NCBI GenBank assembly: GCA_025456205.1
Contig: JALOLA010000041.1
Location: 1-39,202, forward strand
DNA from: Acidobacteriota bacterium
GTDB lineage: Bacteria; Acidobacteriota; Aminicenantia; UBA2199
Length of the DNA stretch: 39,202 nucleotides
Direction: 5' to 3'
Made by a program: the position numbers and the translations under genes. Below are positions 21,664 through 31,002 of the stretch, one piece after another. The notes beneath the pieces are model-generated. The model ran no database searches. It saw only the letters and a program-made list of their open reading frames with translations, and was not told where the DNA came from. The stretch's first letter is position 1. The number at the start of each line of letters is the position of its first letter.

Positions 21664-22677
21664 TCAATACGTGAGGATATGGATGGCGCTGACCGCCTTG
21701 AGGGCGCGGTCGGAAAAGAAATCGGCGGCTGGGAAGATGGCGAAACGCCCGCCGTCGCTCCCCTCACCGCGGTCGAGCAGAAGGAAATCGGCCTGGTCGT
21801 TGCGGTTGAACAGCTCGCTGCAGCTCATGGCGATTCGGTAGCCGTCGACCGAGGCGGCGACCAAGTAGCCCCGACGCAGCGTGGCGGCGTCCACAGTGAC
21901 TGACCCCTTCAGGGCCTCGCTGAGCAGAAAACCGCCGAAGCGCTGGATGCCGTGGAATCCCTTGCCGCGACCGTAGAACACCGAGGGGAAAATGCGGCGT
22001 TCGGCCTTGGCGGGAACGCCCGAAAAAGCGGCTGCGCGGCCGTCGGCAGCGTAGACCCGGAACGTCGGCGCGAAGAGCGGTTTTTGGCCTTTTTTCCCCG
22101 CCGGATGGACCGGCGCCGAGAACACGGTGATGCGGGTCGGGGATTCCAGGATGCGTTCGCTGACCAGGTCGTTGCCGCAGACCAGGCGCATGGCGCCGGG
22201 CAGGGGCCAGTTCTCCTTGGTCTCGCTGGGGATGATCGGCGACACGCGATCGGCGATGAGGATGCGGTGCAGCGCCGTGGGATAAAAAATCTCGCCCCAG
22301 CTCAGGATGACCTTGTCCCCCTGGGCATTCTCCACCGCTACCAGCAGGTCGATGACCGAGCGGAATTCGGCCTCGTTCTTTTTGGCGACAACCATTTCCT
22401 TCAGGATGTCGAAGAGGGAGTAGCCGTCGTAGCGGTAGGAGCCGACGAAGGAGAGGCCGTCCTTCGCCATCCGCGCCTCGCGCACGATGAGCGAGCGCCG
22501 GGGCAGGAGTTCGAGGCTGACGGCGCCGGGCGCGGCCACCTCACCGAGCACCTCGACACTCAGGGTGCCGGCCAGGTTCTTTACCGGCGTGTTGTCGTAG
22601 AAGTCGTTGTTCTCCTGGCCGAATCCGGCCAGGGCGAAGCAGAGGAGCGCGGCGATTAAAAATGTTCTTGTTTTCAT
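21664..22677 (-). CDS. Exported protein with two tandem sulfite-oxidase-fold (molybdopterin-binding-like) domains
   Basis: 337 residues with a signal peptide (about 1-20, ..CFALAGFGQ). Two similar halves can be seen. The first (about 45-195) has YRYDGYSLFDILKEM, LLVAVENAQGDKVILSWGEI and GAMRLVCGND..PTRITVF. The second (about 225-335) has FGGFLLSEALKG, YLVAASVDGYRIAMSCSELF and FAIFPAADFFSDRALKAVSAI. Each follows the G-x-L-x-D-x-L, then DGY, then LV-x-x-D-x-x-R-x-V-x-x-I pattern of PF00174-like (oxidoreductase molybdopterin-binding) domains. I cannot show that the Moco-ligating cysteine is present. The gene starts 27 bases after the TonB-receptor stop and is surely its operon partner; with the Moco-type leader this suggests a periplasmic Mo/W or Moco-related role. 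Confidence 0.72.
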   Translation of the reverse strand: MKTRTFLIAALLCFALAGFGQENNDFYDNTPVKNLAGTLSVEVLGEVAAPGAVSLELLPRRSLIVREARMAKDGLSFVGSYRYDGYSLFDILKEMVVAKKNEAEFRSVIDLLVAVENAQGDKVILSWGEIFYPTALHRILIADRVSPIIPSETKENWPLPGAMRLVCGNDLVSERILESPTRITVFSAPVHPAGKKGQKPLFAPTFRVYAADGRAAAFSGVPAKAERRIFPSVFYGRGKGFHGIQRFGGFLLSEALKGSVTVDAATLRRGYLVAASVDGYRIAMSCSELFNRNDQADFLLLDRGEGSDGGRFAIFPAADFFSDRALKAVSAIHILTY

Positions 22678-22704
22678 TGGCTTATTTCTCCTTGGTTGTT
22701 CTAA

Positions 22705-24609
22705 TTACTTTCTTTCCAGGAAAAAGCGCGTTCCCGCGGTGAAGGAGCGGGCCTTCATCGGCCAGCCGGGCTCGCTCCAGTACTCATTGTTCAGCAGGTT
22801 TTCCGCCTTGACATAGAGGCTGAACTTGCCGAAGCTGCGCTCCAGGGCGGCGTTGACGATGGCATAGGGGTCGACGATGACCACGCCGGCATTGGAGTGG
22901 TAAATGGAGTCGGAGGCATAAATTCCCCAGAATGTCAGGGAAAAGAGATTGGCACGGTAGAAGCGCAGCGAGGCGTTCAACTGGGATGCCGGGATAAGGT
23001 CGAGGCGCTCGCCGTTCTCCTCGTTCTCGGTGTCGAGCCAGGTGTAGCTGGCCGCGACGGAAACGGGGCCGAAGGCCTTGCGCGCCTCCAGCTCGAAGCC
23101 GGTGATGCGCGCGCGGGCGACATTGATGTTCTGCTTGATGAAATCGGCGTTGATGCGGCTCTCGATCATGTCGCGGATGCGGTTCTGGAAAACGGCGCCG
23201 CTGATGAACCAGCCGCGGTCGTAGGTGAAGCCGAACTCGACGTTGGTGCCGATCTCGTCGCGCAGGTCGGGATTGCCGCCGTTCTCCGGCAGGCTGTAGA
23301 GGTTCTTCATCGAGGGAAAGCGCGATTTCTGCGAGAGGGTCAGGTGCAGGTCCACCCAGGCGCTGGGATTGAATTTCACGCCCAGGATGGGATTGAGGGT
23401 GGTCTTGTTCTCGCCGTCCTGCTTGTTCAGGTGGTCGATGCTGGCGCCGGCCATGAGCTCGACCTTGTCGCTGACGCGGAAGCGGTCCTCGAGCCCCAGC
23501 GAGAGCAGCTTGTGCTCGTAATGCTCCCAGGGCGCGCCGAGGGCGGACTGGGTGCTGACGTCGTCGTCGCGGTAGGAGGCGCTGGCGTGCAGCTGGTTCC
23601 TTTCCCCCAGCGGCACCATGCCCAGGACGAAGGCGCCCAGGGCGAAGTTGTCGTAGGTGGATTCCCAGGTCAGGTTGGCGAATTGGCTGTTCTTGTAGGC
23701 GTCCAGCACGTTGTAGTGCTTGACGTAGTAGAGGCGCGCCTTGACATAGCCGCCGTCGAGGACGGGAAAGCTGCCGCCCAGGTTGGCCAGCAGCCGCTGC
23801 CAGTCCCTGAAGCGCCAGTACTGCTGCTTGTAATACGCCGTGGCCGTGGGAATGCCGTATTCGGCCTGGTAGTAGCTGACCTCGGCCATGACCTCGGCGC
23901 CGTTGCCGGGATAGAAATACAGCTTGCCGCCCAGGTTGGTACGCTCGTGGTCGCTGTTCAGGCGCAGCTCGGTGTTGCCGCCGTTCACCCAATTGAAGCC
24001 GTCGGACGCCTCGCGGGACGCCGAGCCGGTGAACAGTACGTTGCGGCCGCGCAGGGCGCCGCTGGCATAGGCGCCATAGGTTTTCCGCGTCCCGTAGTCG
24101 AGGCGCAGGCTGAACTGGTCGCTCACCGGCCGCTTGCTGAGCACGTCGACAATGCCGCCCATGGCGTTGGGGCCGTAAAGGACCGACGATGCGCCCTTGA
24201 CCACCTTGACCGACTCGACCTGGTCGGCGGCGATGGCCTTGACGTCGAAGGAGTTGTAGTAGGGCTCGTAGATGGGAATGCCGTCGTAGAGCAGGGTGAT
24301 GCGATTCGTGCCCAGTCCGCGCAGCTTGACGCCCCATTCGCTCTTGGCGCCGCTGGAGACGTAGGTGCCGGGAACATAGGAAAGGATGTCGGACAGGTCC
24401 CTGGGCTTGAGCGGCTCGATCTTTTCAAGCTTCAGCTCCGAGGTGGCGGCGTAGGGGAGTTCCCGAGGGACCTTGGCCTCGACCGTGACCGATTCGGTGA
24501 TCATGGGCAGGACGACTTCCTTGTCTTTTTTCTCAGGCTTTTCTTCCTCGGCAGGGAGGAAAAAGCCGAGCATGAACAGGCACAGCATCAGAACGAAAAA
24601 CTTTTTCAT
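22705..24609 (-). CDS. TonB-dependent outer-membrane receptor, probable Mo/W or Moco uptake
   Basis: 634 residues, a BtuB-sized receptor rather than a large SusC type. A signal peptide (MKKFFVLMLCLFMLGFFLPA) and a TonB-box-like ESVTVEA (about 40) are followed by a plug domain (about 60-170: RDLSDILSYVPGTYVS, RITLLYDGIPIYE, VKVVKGASSVLYGPNAMGG) and a beta-barrel with alternating aromatic strands to the C-terminus (..FTAGTRFFLERK). GGAGG ten bases before the ATG supports the start. The ATG overlaps the stop of a small leader ORF (ATGA). The leader RNA looks like a Moco riboswitch, and the downstream partner has Moco-fold domains. The substrate (molybdate, tungstate, a chelate or the cofactor) is inference. 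Confidence 0.88.
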   Translation of the reverse strand: MKKFFVLMLCLFMLGFFLPAEEEKPEKKDKEVVLPMITESVTVEAKVPRELPYAATSELKLEKIEPLKPRDLSDILSYVPGTYVSSGAKSEWGVKLRGLGTNRITLLYDGIPIYEPYYNSFDVKAIAADQVESVKVVKGASSVLYGPNAMGGIVDVLSKRPVSDQFSLRLDYGTRKTYGAYASGALRGRNVLFTGSASREASDGFNWVNGGNTELRLNSDHERTNLGGKLYFYPGNGAEVMAEVSYYQAEYGIPTATAYYKQQYWRFRDWQRLLANLGGSFPVLDGGYVKARLYYVKHYNVLDAYKNSQFANLTWESTYDNFALGAFVLGMVPLGERNQLHASASYRDDDVSTQSALGAPWEHYEHKLLSLGLEDRFRVSDKVELMAGASIDHLNKQDGENKTTLNPILGVKFNPSAWVDLHLTLSQKSRFPSMKNLYSLPENGGNPDLRDEIGTNVEFGFTYDRGWFISGAVFQNRIRDMIESRINADFIKQNINVARARITGFELEARKAFGPVSVAASYTWLDTENEENGERLDLIPASQLNASLRFYRANLFSLTFWGIYASDSIYHSNAGVVIVDPYAIVNAALERSFGKFSLYVKAENLLNNEYWSEPGWPMKARSFTAGTRFFLERK

Positions 24610-24686
24610 TTTATTTTGACCTCCATAATTTTGATCGTGGCAATGGAGGCCGATGGGTGTGTAACTGAATAATTGCAGTCTGCCAT
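24606..24686 (-). CDS. 26-residue leader ORF coupled to the TonB receptor
   Basis: AAGGAGG (24692-24698) lies five bases before an ATG at 24686 that opens a 26-codon frame (starts MADCNYSVTHPS, ends IMEVKIK). Its TGA overlaps the receptor ATG at 24609 as ATGA. The Shine-Dalgarno is the 3' end of the riboswitch-like RNA, so ligand binding would first act on this ORF and, through coupling, on the receptor. The peptide is not hydrophobic and resembles nothing I know, so the act of translation may matter more than the product. Its existence rests on the overlap and the Shine-Dalgarno. Confidence 0.65.
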   Translation of the reverse strand: MADCNYSVTHPSASIATIKIMEVKIK

Positions 24687-24689
24687 AAG

Positions 24690-24791
24690 GACCTCCTTCT
24701 CAAAGACGGAAGGCATGGCCGTTTCCCGCCATACCCTTGCGGCCGCTGGGCGTGGTCTTTGGGGACGTTAGCCCGGGCGGCTCGGAGTCAG
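24690..24791 (-). promoter_or_regulatory. Moco (molybdenum/tungsten cofactor) riboswitch-like RNA
   Basis: On the minus strand the leader starts CUCCGAGCC (24779-24787) and continues through AACGUCCCCAAAGACCACGCC to a GAAA-tetraloop hairpin whose 8-pair stem joins 24728-24735 with 24712-24719. It ends UGCCUUCCGUCUUUGA and AAGGAGG. CAAAGAC (24755-24761) pairs perfectly with GUCUUUG (24701-24707), and CUCC of the 5' end can pair with GGAG of the Shine-Dalgarno. This order of conserved blocks is what I remember of the Moco RNA motif found upstream of moa and molybdate genes. The neighbouring Mop and Moco-fold genes agree. I could not run a covariance search. Confidence 0.78.
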
Positions 24792-24797
24792 GGGAGG

Positions 24798-24826
24798 AAT
24801 ATAGCAAAAATAAATTAGGATGTCAA
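24798..24826 (-). promoter_or_regulatory. Consensus sigma70 promoter of the riboswitch-TonB receptor operon
   Basis: On the minus strand, TTGACA (24821-24826), a 17-base spacer and TATATT (24798-24803). The expected transcription start near 24791 places the first conserved block of the riboswitch at the very 5' end of the RNA. This is the best promoter in the window. Confidence 0.85.
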
Positions 24827-26448: not shown

Positions 26449-28813
26449 TCAATGCTCCGGCAGGGCTTCGGCCTTCTGCTTGAAGAGGAAGTAGTAGAGA
26501 ATGTCGCAATAGCGGTTCAGTTCCTGCTTTTCCGCCTTGCTGATCGAATAGCGCCAAAAACCGTAGAGCTTGGCCAGGCCGATCAGCTTCTCGCTGTAGA
26601 GTTTCCAGGTGAAGCTCTCGCGGACGCGGCGGATGCCCTGGCGGGACATCTCATCCCACCTGGACGCGTCCCGGGCGCAGCTGGCGATAAATGGCTCGAT
26701 GCCGGCTGCGATGAGCCCCGGGCGGCTGGTGTTGATCAGGATGCCGCTGACGTCGTTCTCGATGATCTCTTGCGGGCCGCCGAAGAGCGGCCCGAACGTC
26801 GGCAGTCCCGAGAGCATGGCCTCCAGGATGGTCAGGCCGAAGGCCTCGAAAAGCGCTGGTTGCACAAAGACGCCGCGGCGGTCGGCCATGATGCGGTAGG
26901 CTTCGCCGGTGTCCAGGCGTTGCAGGCCGGGCAGCCAGCGCACCTGGTCATGCAGGGCATAGCGCTCGATCATGGCGTGGGCCTTTTCGATCTCCTCCCG
27001 CTCCTCGGGGTCGCGGGCGCGGCCGGGATCAACGGTCCCGGCGGAGAAGATCAGGTTGCAGCCGGTGCGCAGGGCCTTGCTCATGCCGAAGGCTTCGATC
27101 AGGCCGGTGATGTTCTTGATGCGGTCGAAGCGGGCCAGGGTGAAAATGGGCGGCTTGTCCGGGTCTCGCAACCGCCCGAACACGTCGTCCGCGGCGTCGC
27201 GAAGCAGGCGCGCTTCGATGGCGCGGGTTTTCGCCGCCGTCCTTTTCTCCCGCTCATGATAAGGGAAGAATATCTGCTCGTCGACCCCCGGCGAGATCAC
27301 GTTGAACTTGGGAGCGAACAGGTTGATGCCGCCCTGGACCTGGAACAGGCCGGGCAGGGTGAAGAACTGGTAGGATTCGTACTGGCCCATGCTCTCTTCC
27401 GTGCCGATGATCTCCTGGTGCGTGCTGGAGATGATGAAGTCGGACTTGTTCATGGCGATCAGGTCGGCGGTGAATTGCAGGGAGAAGTGGTGGTATTCCT
27501 CCAAATTGCGCCAATAGAGGTCGGAGAACAGGTACTTGGTCTTTTCCAGGGCGTGGGCGATGGTGCACTGAATGACGTCGAGGCGGTCCGACATCAGCGA
27601 CGCCACCAGGTTGCCGTCGGAATAGTTGCCGCAGCGCGGCGTCCTCGGCGAAACGCTCCAGGTAGGGCCAGACGTGGAAACGCGACGTCCATTTGTCGAC
27701 GATCCTGCCCTCGCGGTCCTTGAATGGGACGCGCAGGATCCAGCAGTTGTCGGTATGGTGGATCTTCTCCCGCGCCACGTTGCAGCGGGTGTTCTCGGCG
27801 TCGGGAATGTAGCGGGTGATCACGACGATCGCCGGGCGCACCGCCAGCCCGGTGCCCGATATCTCCTGCTGCAGGTGCTTTTCGAGCGCCCGCACCTGGT
27901 CGAGGATATAGATCACCTGGCCGCCGGTATCGGGACGGCCCAGCACGTTCTCCTGGGCGAACCAGCCGTGGGGGGAGATGACGGCGATCTTGGAAATCAG
28001 CGGCATGGGCACCAGCGACAGGAAGCGCTCCAGCAGGTAGTCGGCGGGCTCGTTGATCAGGTCGATGAGGGTTTCCATGGTCGCGGCCATGCGGCCGGCC
28101 CGGTCGCCCCAGCCGGGCTCGAAGCCTTTTTCGCGCATGCGCTTTTCCAGGGTGGCGGCGGGTGCGGCGGGCGGCTTGTCCTTCAGCCAGGCGTGCATGG
28201 CCTGCAGCGCGGGGAAAAAAGCCGCGAAGTCGGGCAGAATCGCTCCGTTCACCAGCAACTGCTGCTCGTTATAGCGGTGCAGCTTGAGGAACTGGAAGAG
28301 CTTGTCGTTCCATTCGCCGGGGTGGTTGAAGATGTTGCTGCACAGGAAACGATTGAGATAGCGGGTGCCGTTGCCGATCGAGCGGGCGTCCTTGATGTTG
28401 GGGCTGAAATCATGGAAAGGCAGGAGGTCGATGCGCAGGTGCCTTTCACCGGGCAGGACGCCCGTCACGTAGTGATCCTTCAGGTCGAGGTACTCGCGCA
28501 CCGTGATCTCCTCCATGGCGGCGCAGTCGACGCGCAGCAGGTAGAAGCGGTAGCGCGCGATGGCGTAGCGGTGCATGATGGCCAGGTACTCGTCGCGGAC
28601 CAGGATCTCCTGGATGCGGGCCAGGAACCTGGCCATGGACGAGTTGCGCCGGAAGGCCGGTGATTTTTTGCGCTCGTCGCAGAAACCGGCGAAAACCAGC
28701 AGAATATCGTTGCGCAGCAGGATCCGACCCGGCTGCGCTCCCAGCTGGGCGATCAGGTCGCGGAATTCGCCCTGCTCGCTTTTTTCGATGATGCTCTGCA
28801 GCGGATCCTTCAC
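26449..28813 (-). pseudogene. Sucrose synthase, broken by frameshift/deletion
   Basis: The N-terminal part starts at a GTG (28813) overlapping the SPS stop (GTGA) and preceded by GGAGGTG. It has the sucrose synthase blocks RYRFYLLRVDCA, AVISPHGWFAQENVLGRPDT and GGQVIYILDQVRALE, ending at WPYLERFAEDA. Near 27625-27640 the frame changes. The rest runs GNYSDGNLVASL, TIAHALEKTKY, FSLQFTADLIAMNKSDFIIS and the GT-B C-terminal domain with FEAFGLTILEAMLSGLPTF. The roughly 15-18 residues normally between FAED and GNYSDG seem to be missing, so it is more than a one-base slip. Total span fits an approximately 800-residue enzyme (sucrose + UDP = UDP-glucose + fructose). Decay or assembly error cannot be told apart here. 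Confidence 0.88.
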
Positions 28814-31002
28814 CTTTCACCTCCGCGGATCTTTTCGGCGAAATGATAATGGGCGATCCCTTCCAGAATGCCCGCCGCGCCCGGCGCTTCGGCGAAATAG
28901 ACGTTCCGCGCCCCCTTGAGGTGCTCCAGCTCGTCGGCATGGTTGCCGACGACGACGGCCAGCGGTTCGCCGCGCAGCATCTCCTCGTCATTGCCGGAAT
29001 CCCCGCAGACGAGGATGTTTTCCAGCGGGATCTCCCACTTGTAGCTGATGAAGCGGATGGCCTTGCCCTTGGAGGCGCGGTAGGGAAGTATGTCCAGGTA
29101 GCGGTCATGGGAATAGATCAGGCTGAAGCGGCAACGATGACGCACCAGCCGCTCGCGCACGCGGGCGAGGCGGTCCTTGCCGGGCTCCATGAAATAGCTG
29201 ATCTTGAACTTGCGCTGGGTTTCGTCCTCCTGGTAGGACAGGAAGGGGAAACTGGAGAGGAGCTGGACGATCTTGGCCCGGTCCCAGCGGTGGGACAAAT
29301 GGGCGTCCCAGCCCGAATCGTAGAGATGCTGCGGGCCGTAATAGATCTCCGAGCCCACCGATGAAATGACGAGATCGGGCGCGGGCACGCCGAATTCCGC
29401 CAGCCGCTCGAGCGCCGAGGCCATCGTTCGCCCCGTGGCCACGGCAAAGCCGCAGCGGTCGCGGTGGGCATCGAGGAAGGCGATCATTTCGTCCAAGCCG
29501 CCGTGGTCCTCGCTGATGAGCGTGTGGTCGATGTCGCTGACCAGGAAATGCTGCAGGGCGGCGAGCCGGCTGCCGGCGGAGAGCTCGCGATTCTGTCCGG
29601 AGAGATGGGATGTCGCCGACACGGCCAGCTCCTTCACCAGCGGCGCGTATGAATTGGCATGGGCCTCCCAGGTGTAGTGCTCGCGCACGTTGATCACGCC
29701 ATTCTTTGAATAGGTGTTCCAGAGCTCGGGCCGGGAGAGGATGGACTTGATGGCCCGGGCAATGGCCGTCGGATCGTGGGGCTCCACCAGGATGCCGCTC
29801 TCGCAGTTGCGCAGGATATCTCTGGGGCCGCCGTCGTTGGTGGCCACGATGGGCAGCCCGCAGGAAGATGCCTCGAGCAGGGTCAGGCCGAAGGGCTCGG
29901 TCAGCGCCACGTTGACGAAAACGCCCTTCTTTTCCGCGGCGATGCGGTAGAGCTCGGGAACTTCGTGCTCGAAGTCGTGGCGCTTGGGGATGGCCATCTT
30001 GCCGTACAGGTCGTACTTGTCCATGAGCAGCAGGATTTCGGTGAGCACGTCGCGCTCGTTCTCCTCCATGTCGTGGATGTCCTTGCGGATGCCGGCGAAG
30101 ATGGCCAGATTGGCCATGACCTGCAGGTCGCGGTCCTGGCCGTAGGCCTCGATCAGCCCGGCGATGTTCTTGCGCTTGTCGGGGCGGCACAGGGTCAGCA
30201 CCAGCGGCTTGTCGGTCTGAGTAAAGAAGCGGTTGAGCTCCTGCAGCACGCCGGCTTGCGCCTGGATCTGTGCCTCGTCCCGGCTGCGTTCGGGGAGCAG
30301 GTCATGATAATAGGGATAGAACTTCGCCACGTCGATGCCGGGAGGGATGATTACATAACGCCCCAGCGCCGCGTTCTCGTACTGGCCGTACTGCACCTCC
30401 TTCTCCTGGTGGGTGCTGGTCACCACCAAGTCGGCGTTCTTCAGGATCTCCTCCTCCCTCTGGATGCGCGTGAAGATCCTGTACTTTTTGCCGACCTCGT
30501 CCTCGCGCATGCCGCCGGCGATGAGTTTCGACAATTTGGAACGGCCCAGGGAATGGCCGGTGAAAACGAAGGGGATGCCGAAGATCTCGGAGATCTGCAT
30601 GGCCACGTAGCCGCCGTCGGCGTAATGGCCGTGAACGACATGGGGGATGACGTTTCCCCGCTTGATGAACTTGATCGCCTTGTCGATGTATTCATCGAGG
30701 TGCGGCCAGAGCAGCTCCTTGCGCATGTACTTCTTGCCACCGCAGGCGATGCGCACGATGCGCAGGCGCTCGTTGACCGTTTCCAGCGGCACGGCGTAAT
30801 CCTCGGATATGGTCTTGTCGGCGATGAGGCGGGTGAAAAGGTCGACGCGGGCCACGCCGGGAGTGCAACTGAGCTGCTCGGCCAGTTCCACGACATACTT
30901 GATCTGGCCCCCGGTATCGGCGTCCCGGCCCATCTCCATGTTCTCCCGGCGCAGCAGCCCGTGGATGCTGAACATCTGGATGTACAATCCACCGTCATTC
31001 AT
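28810..31002 (-). CDS. Sucrose-phosphate synthase with C-terminal HAD phosphatase domain
   Basis: 730 residues. The N-terminal GT-B glycosyltransferase (about 1-465) shows MFSIHGLLRRENMEMGRDAD, TGGQIKYVVELA, HGHYADGGYVAMQ, TGHSLGRSKLSKL and EPFGLTLLEASSCGLPIVAT, typical of SPS, which makes sucrose-6-phosphate from UDP-glucose and fructose-6-phosphate. The C-terminal HAD-IIB domain (about 485-725) has the nucleophile motif VSDIDHTL and the metal motif CGDSGNDEEML. With both sets intact, it may also release the phosphate to give sucrose (inference). Overlaps: eight bases with the upstream kinase and a GTGA with sucrose synthase, so one coupled operon. Confidence 0.94.
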   Translation of the reverse strand: MNDGGLYIQMFSIHGLLRRENMEMGRDADTGGQIKYVVELAEQLSCTPGVARVDLFTRLIADKTISEDYAVPLETVNERLRIVRIACGGKKYMRKELLWPHLDEYIDKAIKFIKRGNVIPHVVHGHYADGGYVAMQISEIFGIPFVFTGHSLGRSKLSKLIAGGMREDEVGKKYRIFTRIQREEEILKNADLVVTSTHQEKEVQYGQYENAALGRYVIIPPGIDVAKFYPYYHDLLPERSRDEAQIQAQAGVLQELNRFFTQTDKPLVLTLCRPDKRKNIAGLIEAYGQDRDLQVMANLAIFAGIRKDIHDMEENERDVLTEILLLMDKYDLYGKMAIPKRHDFEHEVPELYRIAAEKKGVFVNVALTEPFGLTLLEASSCGLPIVATNDGGPRDILRNCESGILVEPHDPTAIARAIKSILSRPELWNTYSKNGVINVREHYTWEAHANSYAPLVKELAVSATSHLSGQNRELSAGSRLAALQHFLVSDIDHTLISEDHGGLDEMIAFLDAHRDRCGFAVATGRTMASALERLAEFGVPAPDLVISSVGSEIYYGPQHLYDSGWDAHLSHRWDRAKIVQLLSSFPFLSYQEDETQRKFKISYFMEPGKDRLARVRERLVRHRCRFSLIYSHDRYLDILPYRASKGKAIRFISYKWEIPLENILVCGDSGNDEEMLRGEPLAVVVGNHADELEHLKGARNVYFAEAPGAAGILEGIAHYHFAEKIRGGER

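Follow-up and report, generated by a model that had tools for sequence, protein, structure and literature searches.

The contig JALOLA010000041.1 of an Acidobacteriota bacterium from the Aminicenantia, analysed here over its whole 39,202 nucleotides (the window), carries on its minus strand a riboswitch for the molybdenum or tungsten cofactor (Moco/Tuco), followed by the gene of a TonB-dependent outer-membrane receptor (TBDR) and the gene of an exported protein with a sulfite-oxidase-like fold, termed the partner below. Together they very probably serve to acquire tungsten, and possibly molybdenum, across the outer membrane, as a module repressed by the riboswitch, which is of the P3-lacking form. 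The order of the three elements is conserved in related genomes, and elsewhere the partner is co-located with tungstate ATP-binding cassette (ABC) transporters and Moco synthesis genes. The ligand, the direction of control and the chemistry of the partner are inferred. The window is one complete 39-kb contig of a metagenome-assembled genome of 2.59 Mb that is 87% complete; the features are listed in Table 1.

Table 1. Features of the receptor locus and of the gene upstream of it, in window coordinates
Feature	Position	Strand	Evidence or remark
Promoter, sigma70-type, TTGACA-17-TATATT	24798..24826	(-)	11/12 match; 0.6 expected in shuffles
Moco/Tuco riboswitch aptamer RF01055, P3-lacking form	24677..24799	(-)	covariance search
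P1 5' strand, GACTCC	24784..24789	(-)	covariance structure line and sequence reading
Shine-Dalgarno AAGGAGG, overlapping P1 3' strand	24692..24698	(-)	structure line and sequence
Short leader open reading frame (ORF), 26 codons	24606..24686	(-)	sequence reading; TGA overlaps receptor ATG (ATGA)
Hairpin GGCCTCCAT/ATGGAGGTC, 9-bp helix	24618..24651	(-)	would hide the receptor's own Shine-Dalgarno
TBDR, 634 aa	22705..24609	(-)	PF00593 beta-barrel E 1e-36; PF07715 plug E 1e-21
Partner, exported, 337 aa; sulfite-oxidase-like fold without Mo-ligating cysteine	21664..22677	(-)	AlphaFold2 model and alignments
Molbindin, single TOBE/Mop domain, 69 aa	25113..25322	(-)	PF03459 E 2.2e-18; upstream of the riboswitch, same strand

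Riboswitch and expression platform

An earlier reading of the window from its letters alone (the sequence-only reading) had recognised a consensus promoter and a leader resembling the Moco RNA motif, and both assignments hold. The covariance search matched RF01055 over its full length (model positions 1-135; E 8.5e-15); the score of 69.1 bits exceeds the gathering score of 36, and this is the sole RF01055 match within the window. A promoter-like pair with at least 9 of 12 matching positions was also found just upstream of 84 of 120 related riboswitches, compared with 13 of 600 control windows. In the covariance alignment of the window riboswitch the positions of the P3 hairpin are gapped or deleted, and the P3 stem of the Moco subclass is thus lacking. 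The P3 state of the other riboswitches was judged by a sequence pattern, which failed in a minority and left a few unassigned; the related riboswitches appear to be P3-lacking throughout, which is a strong impression and not an exact tally.

The location of the Shine-Dalgarno sequence within the 3' strand of P1 suggests a translational expression platform, and an overlap of this kind has been described at E. coli moaA (PMC2408646). In nearly all TBDR-type loci a start codon follows approximately 5-10 nt past the GGAG of the P1 3' strand. In the window this start codon belongs to the 26-codon leader ORF and not to the receptor, to which the leader ORF is probably translationally coupled by the ATGA overlap. 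Leader ORFs of 17-26 codons are present in eight of nine same-genus receptor loci, and in one relative (G012) the leader ORF is in frame with the receptor. A helix of 7-13 bp comparable to the hairpin in front of the window receptor was found in all nine of these loci, single cases being modest when compared with shuffles.

The receptor and its partner

Both the plug and the TonB-dependent beta-barrel of the receptor score above cut-off, in agreement with the sequence-only reading, which had placed a TBDR after the leader. A TonB-box-like segment, ITESVTVEA, was found by eye, and ITEEI-V is conserved in relatives. At one related locus (L192:3938-5173, minus strand, genome G020) the TBDR frame runs into the C-terminal part of the partner, which is either a fusion or a decayed copy.

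The partner gene starts 27 bases downstream of the receptor stop codon, and its closest homologues, 76-79% identical, come from Candidatus Aminicenantes. Searches of Pfam, NCBIfam and the sequences of the Protein Data Bank (PDB) did not fit the window partner to any family. No significant match to PF00174 was obtained for it, only two of 63 relatives matched (best E 0.12), and profile-profile alignment against 31 PF00174 proteins gave a weak result. On the other hand, an AlphaFold2 model of the partner (predicted local distance difference test, pLDDT, 91.5) gave only five PDB structure matches at E<0.001, all of them to sulfite dehydrogenases or oxidases (probability 1.00, E ~1e-5). The partner can therefore be placed in the SUOX fold, yet the global TM-score against the sulfite oxidase-family matches is only ~0.3, and its two-domain arrangement consequently differs from that of sulfite oxidases. 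The two halves of the partner resemble each other (p 6.5e-4 over 117 columns). The two sulfite-oxidase-fold domains assigned by the sequence-only reading are thus upheld by structure matches to this family and to nothing unrelated, and weakly so by the likeness of the halves; a PF00174 match was not obtained.

Among 63 aligned members, DGYR-like and DFFSDR motifs are invariant, and no cysteine is conserved at the Mo-ligand position of the mature domain; VFYGRG stands where sulfite oxidases have a CAGN-type motif. Without this ligand, catalysis as in sulfite oxidases is unlikely. For the same reason a partner with the fold of Moco enzymes should not be read as one that binds Moco, and fold likeness alone would be no proof of cofactor binding. 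Judged by these sequence comparisons, the partner represents a new family of proteins.

Recurrence in the Aminicenantia

A scan of 119 relatives detected the riboswitch in 83 and the partner in 30. From these genomes 120 riboswitch loci were extracted, and the first downstream gene was named by tblastn against seeds identified by family. Three loci could not be assigned. In the remaining 117 the first gene encodes a TBDR in 49 cases and the partner directly in three, followed in frequency order of the other classes by TupA or a Tup-type operon (26), WtpA (19), MoeA (14), a MolA-like binding protein (4), aldehyde ferredoxin oxidoreductase (AOR; 1) and ModA (1). The riboswitch-TBDR class comprises 48 genomes from six families, the genomes being related to one another, for which reason a simple binomial estimate would be no true probability here. 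Chance placement of the riboswitch in front of a TBDR is no serious option, because a genome of this size holds only six TBDRs, the number of plug matches in the genome of the window.

The order of leader, receptor and partner was looked for in these genomes and recurs, the partner lying behind the receptor in 20 of the 49 riboswitch-TBDR loci. Seen from the partner, a same-strand riboswitch lies upstream in 20 of the 25 strong Aminicenantia loci; another three are truncated at contig ends, which match orphan riboswitch contigs (G013, G018, and G039). An ORF of 714 or 728 residues that seemed to follow two riboswitches was rejected, since tblastn identified it as a shadow frame of a TBDR.

In four members of the class a binding protein of PF01497 (MolA/BtuF-type) stands directly under the riboswitch (L248, L250, L233, and L262; genomes G046, G063, G090, and G094). 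CcsA-like and ResB-like genes that resemble cytochrome c assembly genes, with sub-threshold Pfam scores, lie between TBDR and partner at L063:6468-7993, and an ORF similar to them by eye precedes the partner at L069.

The genome of the window contains one further RF01055 riboswitch, approximately 35 bases upstream of moeA. A TupA-TupB-TupC operon is located apart from the window, and there are three genes for tungsten-type AOR and two PF00384 genes.

Gene contexts in other phyla

A genome scan for the partner yielded 80 loci, mostly from Bacteroidota. Near the partner, WtpA was found in 25 loci, WtpB in 29, MoeA, MoaA and MoaC in 14, and a ModE-type regulator in 13. The fullest Bacteroidota order runs ModE, WtpA, a lipoprotein, a protein sorted by the type IX secretion system (T9SS), TBDR, partner, WtpB, and WtpC, and continues with MoeA, MoaA, MoaC, and a MOSC/MoCF protein. 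A shorter arrangement, WtpA-partner-WtpB-WtpC, occurs in several loci, where the partner stands immediately between WtpA and WtpB and no TBDR is recognised. WtpA scored 378.7 and 334.6 bits against two curated NCBIfam equivalog models, above the cut-off of each. The partner is recurrently linked in operons to curated tungsten/molybdenum transporter components. In an Elusimicrobia locus the partner is accompanied by a TupA-type binding protein, a permease, MoeA, MoaA, and MoaC. Two regulators thus tie the module to tungsten and molybdenum, as it is preceded by a cofactor riboswitch in one phylum and lies in operons with a regulator of the molybdate (ModE) type in another.

The lipoprotein, of a family of about 300 residues (L116:3614-5465 and homologues), is present in 24 of the 80 loci and the T9SS-sorted protein in 15; both accompany the Bacteroidota TBDR. 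A model of the lipoprotein (pLDDT 91.4) gave generic immunoglobulin-like matches only. In five Bacteroidota loci (L104, L111, L120, L127, and L128) the partner stands beside a GntP permease and a gene of the MOFRL glycerate kinase type, with no Wtp gene and no recognised TBDR near it.

The riboswitch had been expected to be absent from Bacteroidota. This was rejected, as it is present in three of 22 non-Aminicenantia genomes, upstream of other transporters. In two Bacteroidota genomes (L280:1501-1634 and L281:1501-1641) it precedes a TauE/SafE-family permease, and at L281 it is followed by an ORF that is MobB-like by eye and has no Pfam match, suggesting that this permease family can be linked to molybdenum or tungsten. 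In a third (L282:284-1630, minus strand) it lies upstream of a MOT1-type molybdate transporter (PF16983), an arrangement reported for Caldithrix abyssi (PMC5317091).

Proposed function and alternative explanations

The following course of events is proposed. When Tuco or Moco is plentiful, the aptamer would close P1 and hide the Shine-Dalgarno sequence of the leader ORF; with the leader untranslated, the coupled start of the receptor would stay shut in its own hairpin. When the cofactor falls, the leader would be translated, and receptor and partner would be made. The TBDR would then move scarce tungstate or molybdate, or a chelate of it, across the outer membrane, and in the periplasm the partner may take up the metal oxyanion or free it from its carrier. 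The unlinked TupABC would carry the metal inward for cofactor assembly by MoeA, which is under riboswitch control as well, and the metal cofactor would serve enzymes such as the three tungsten-type AORs. Tungsten is probably the metal rather than molybdenum because of the P3-lacking form of the riboswitch, the Tup and Wtp transporters and the AOR enzymes; P3-lacking Moco RNAs correlate with organisms that use the tungsten cofactor (PMC2408646). A bolder proposal, put forward only tentatively, is that a dedicated TBDR lets anaerobes of several phyla import tungsten in chelated form, either in a "tungstophore" or in a scavenged complex. In the periplasm a cofactor-free pseudo-enzyme with two repeats of the sulfite oxidase fold would then strip off or receive the oxyanion and pass it on to Wtp or TupA.

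Several observations weigh against an acquisition module. Receptor and partner are not an obligate pair, since riboswitch-TBDR loci without the partner exist (29, of which 21 were searched over the full 5.6 kb), as do many Bacteroidota partner loci that have no TBDR or Wtp genes nearby. Two Aminicenantia partner loci have no riboswitch (G029, with an M3 peptidase gene upstream, and G101). The Tup genes of the genome containing the window are neither linked to the receptor locus nor to a riboswitch, and the best sequence relatives of the receptor are generic receptors of the Cir/BtuB type. Moreover, loss of P3 alone left the specificity unswitched in E. coli (PMC2408646).

Three other explanations were weighed. 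The partner might be an ordinary enzyme of the sulfite oxidase family that follows cofactor supply, with a receptor that serves something else and is merely co-transcribed. Its fold match fits this explanation, and so does Syntrophomonas wolfei, in which P3-lacking Moco RNAs stand in front of genes for putative sulfite oxidases (PMC2408646). It is nevertheless quite improbable given a protein that lacks both the conserved cysteine ligand and a significant PF00174 match and that sits within wtpABC operons, and given the many loci with a receptor under the riboswitch and no partner. The sequence-only reading had left open whether chelates of the metals or molybdopterin itself are imported. Uptake of molybdenum or tungsten is indicated by the WtpABC, ModE, TupA-type, and MoeA/MoaA/MoaC contexts. 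A receptor for preformed molybdopterin, Moco or Tuco, with the partner as its periplasmic carrier, would agree with a riboswitch that senses the cofactor itself, with the Moco-enzyme fold of the partner and with the TBDRs that are controlled by B12 and thiamine riboswitches and import the same cofactor (PMC5317091). Such import is disfavoured, and we consider it very improbable, because the operons combine oxyanion ABC transporters (WtpABC) with moeA, moaA, and moaC; the absence of the Mo-ligating cysteine and the control of the genome's own moeA by the same riboswitch class also count against it.

Finally, the receptor could take up another nutrient needed for molybdenum or tungsten enzymes, such as an iron chelate, cobalamin or nickel, the riboswitch coordinating both. 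The relationship to Cir and BtuB agrees with this, and three riboswitch-TBDR genomes also have a PF01497-type (chelate-type) binding protein under the riboswitch. Against this explanation, PF01497 also covers MolA of the MolBCA molybdate/tungstate system, and the Bacteroidota TBDR has WtpA on one side and WtpB/WtpC on the other, in the company of a ModE-type regulator; another nutrient is highly unlikely.

Relation to known systems

Passage of tungsten and molybdenum through the outer membrane is normally ascribed to porins. The open-access literature searched describes no TonB receptor connected with molybdate, tungstate, a Moco riboswitch or ModE, and two regulon studies that mention ModE or molybdenum report no such receptor; the sequence-only reading had likewise known of no such system. 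The closest precedents are BtuB with the cobalamin riboswitch and the thiamine TBDR with the thiamine pyrophosphate riboswitch, both arrangements being described in Caldithrix, in which a cofactor riboswitch represses a TBDR for the cofactor or its precursor (PMC5317091). In the locus described here the sensor is instead a Moco/Tuco RNA, the context is tungstate/molybdate transport and the partner is a new family. As judged against the open literature, the novelty lies in the substrate class and the partner, the control logic being precedented.

WtpABC, TupABC, and ModABC share with the module the regulon, the supply of tungsten or molybdenum and, in Bacteroidota, the operons, but act at the inner membrane; a 2018 survey names them as the only molybdenum/tungsten transporters of prokaryotes and mentions neither TonB nor the outer membrane (PMC6147048). 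The RF01055 regulons of Regulski et al. (2008) have the same RNA, sensing logic and P1-Shine-Dalgarno platform, whereas their targets are molybdate transport, cofactor synthesis and molybdenum/tungsten enzymes; TonB and the outer membrane do not come up in that paper (PMC2408646). Significant fold neighbours of the partner are confined to the sulfite oxidase/dehydrogenase family (SUOX fold, PF00174), from which the partner differs in its two half-length repeats, the lack of a conserved cysteine ligand and the lack of a significant family hidden Markov model match. Chelate-mediated uptake of molybdenum and vanadium through the outer membrane by catechol siderophores of Azotobacter is similar to the proposed chelate route, but there the siderophores are secreted by an aerobic diazotroph, and we know of no Moco riboswitch or such partner in that system.

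The locus and its relatives offer a concrete, testable candidate for active uptake of tungsten and molybdenum across the outer membrane with its own RNA sensor, and suggest that these metals can become so scarce under anaerobic, sulfide-rich conditions that energised scavenging pays. They open a new periplasmic protein family to tungstate and molybdate binding assays, and provide a natural set of P3-lacking riboswitches for probing the still unsettled proposal that the tungsten cofactor is what this form senses.

Neighbouring genes

A molbindin gene, as found upstream of the window riboswitch, occupies the corresponding place at two of the ten related loci that were checked for it. Further away, a sucrose synthase occupies two overlapping frames at 26449-28813 (minus strand), with the N-terminal domains at 27254-28813 and the remainder at 26449-27606; the split appears to be a frameshift or an assembly error. 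It adjoins a sucrose-phosphate synthase/phosphatase fusion at 28810-31002.

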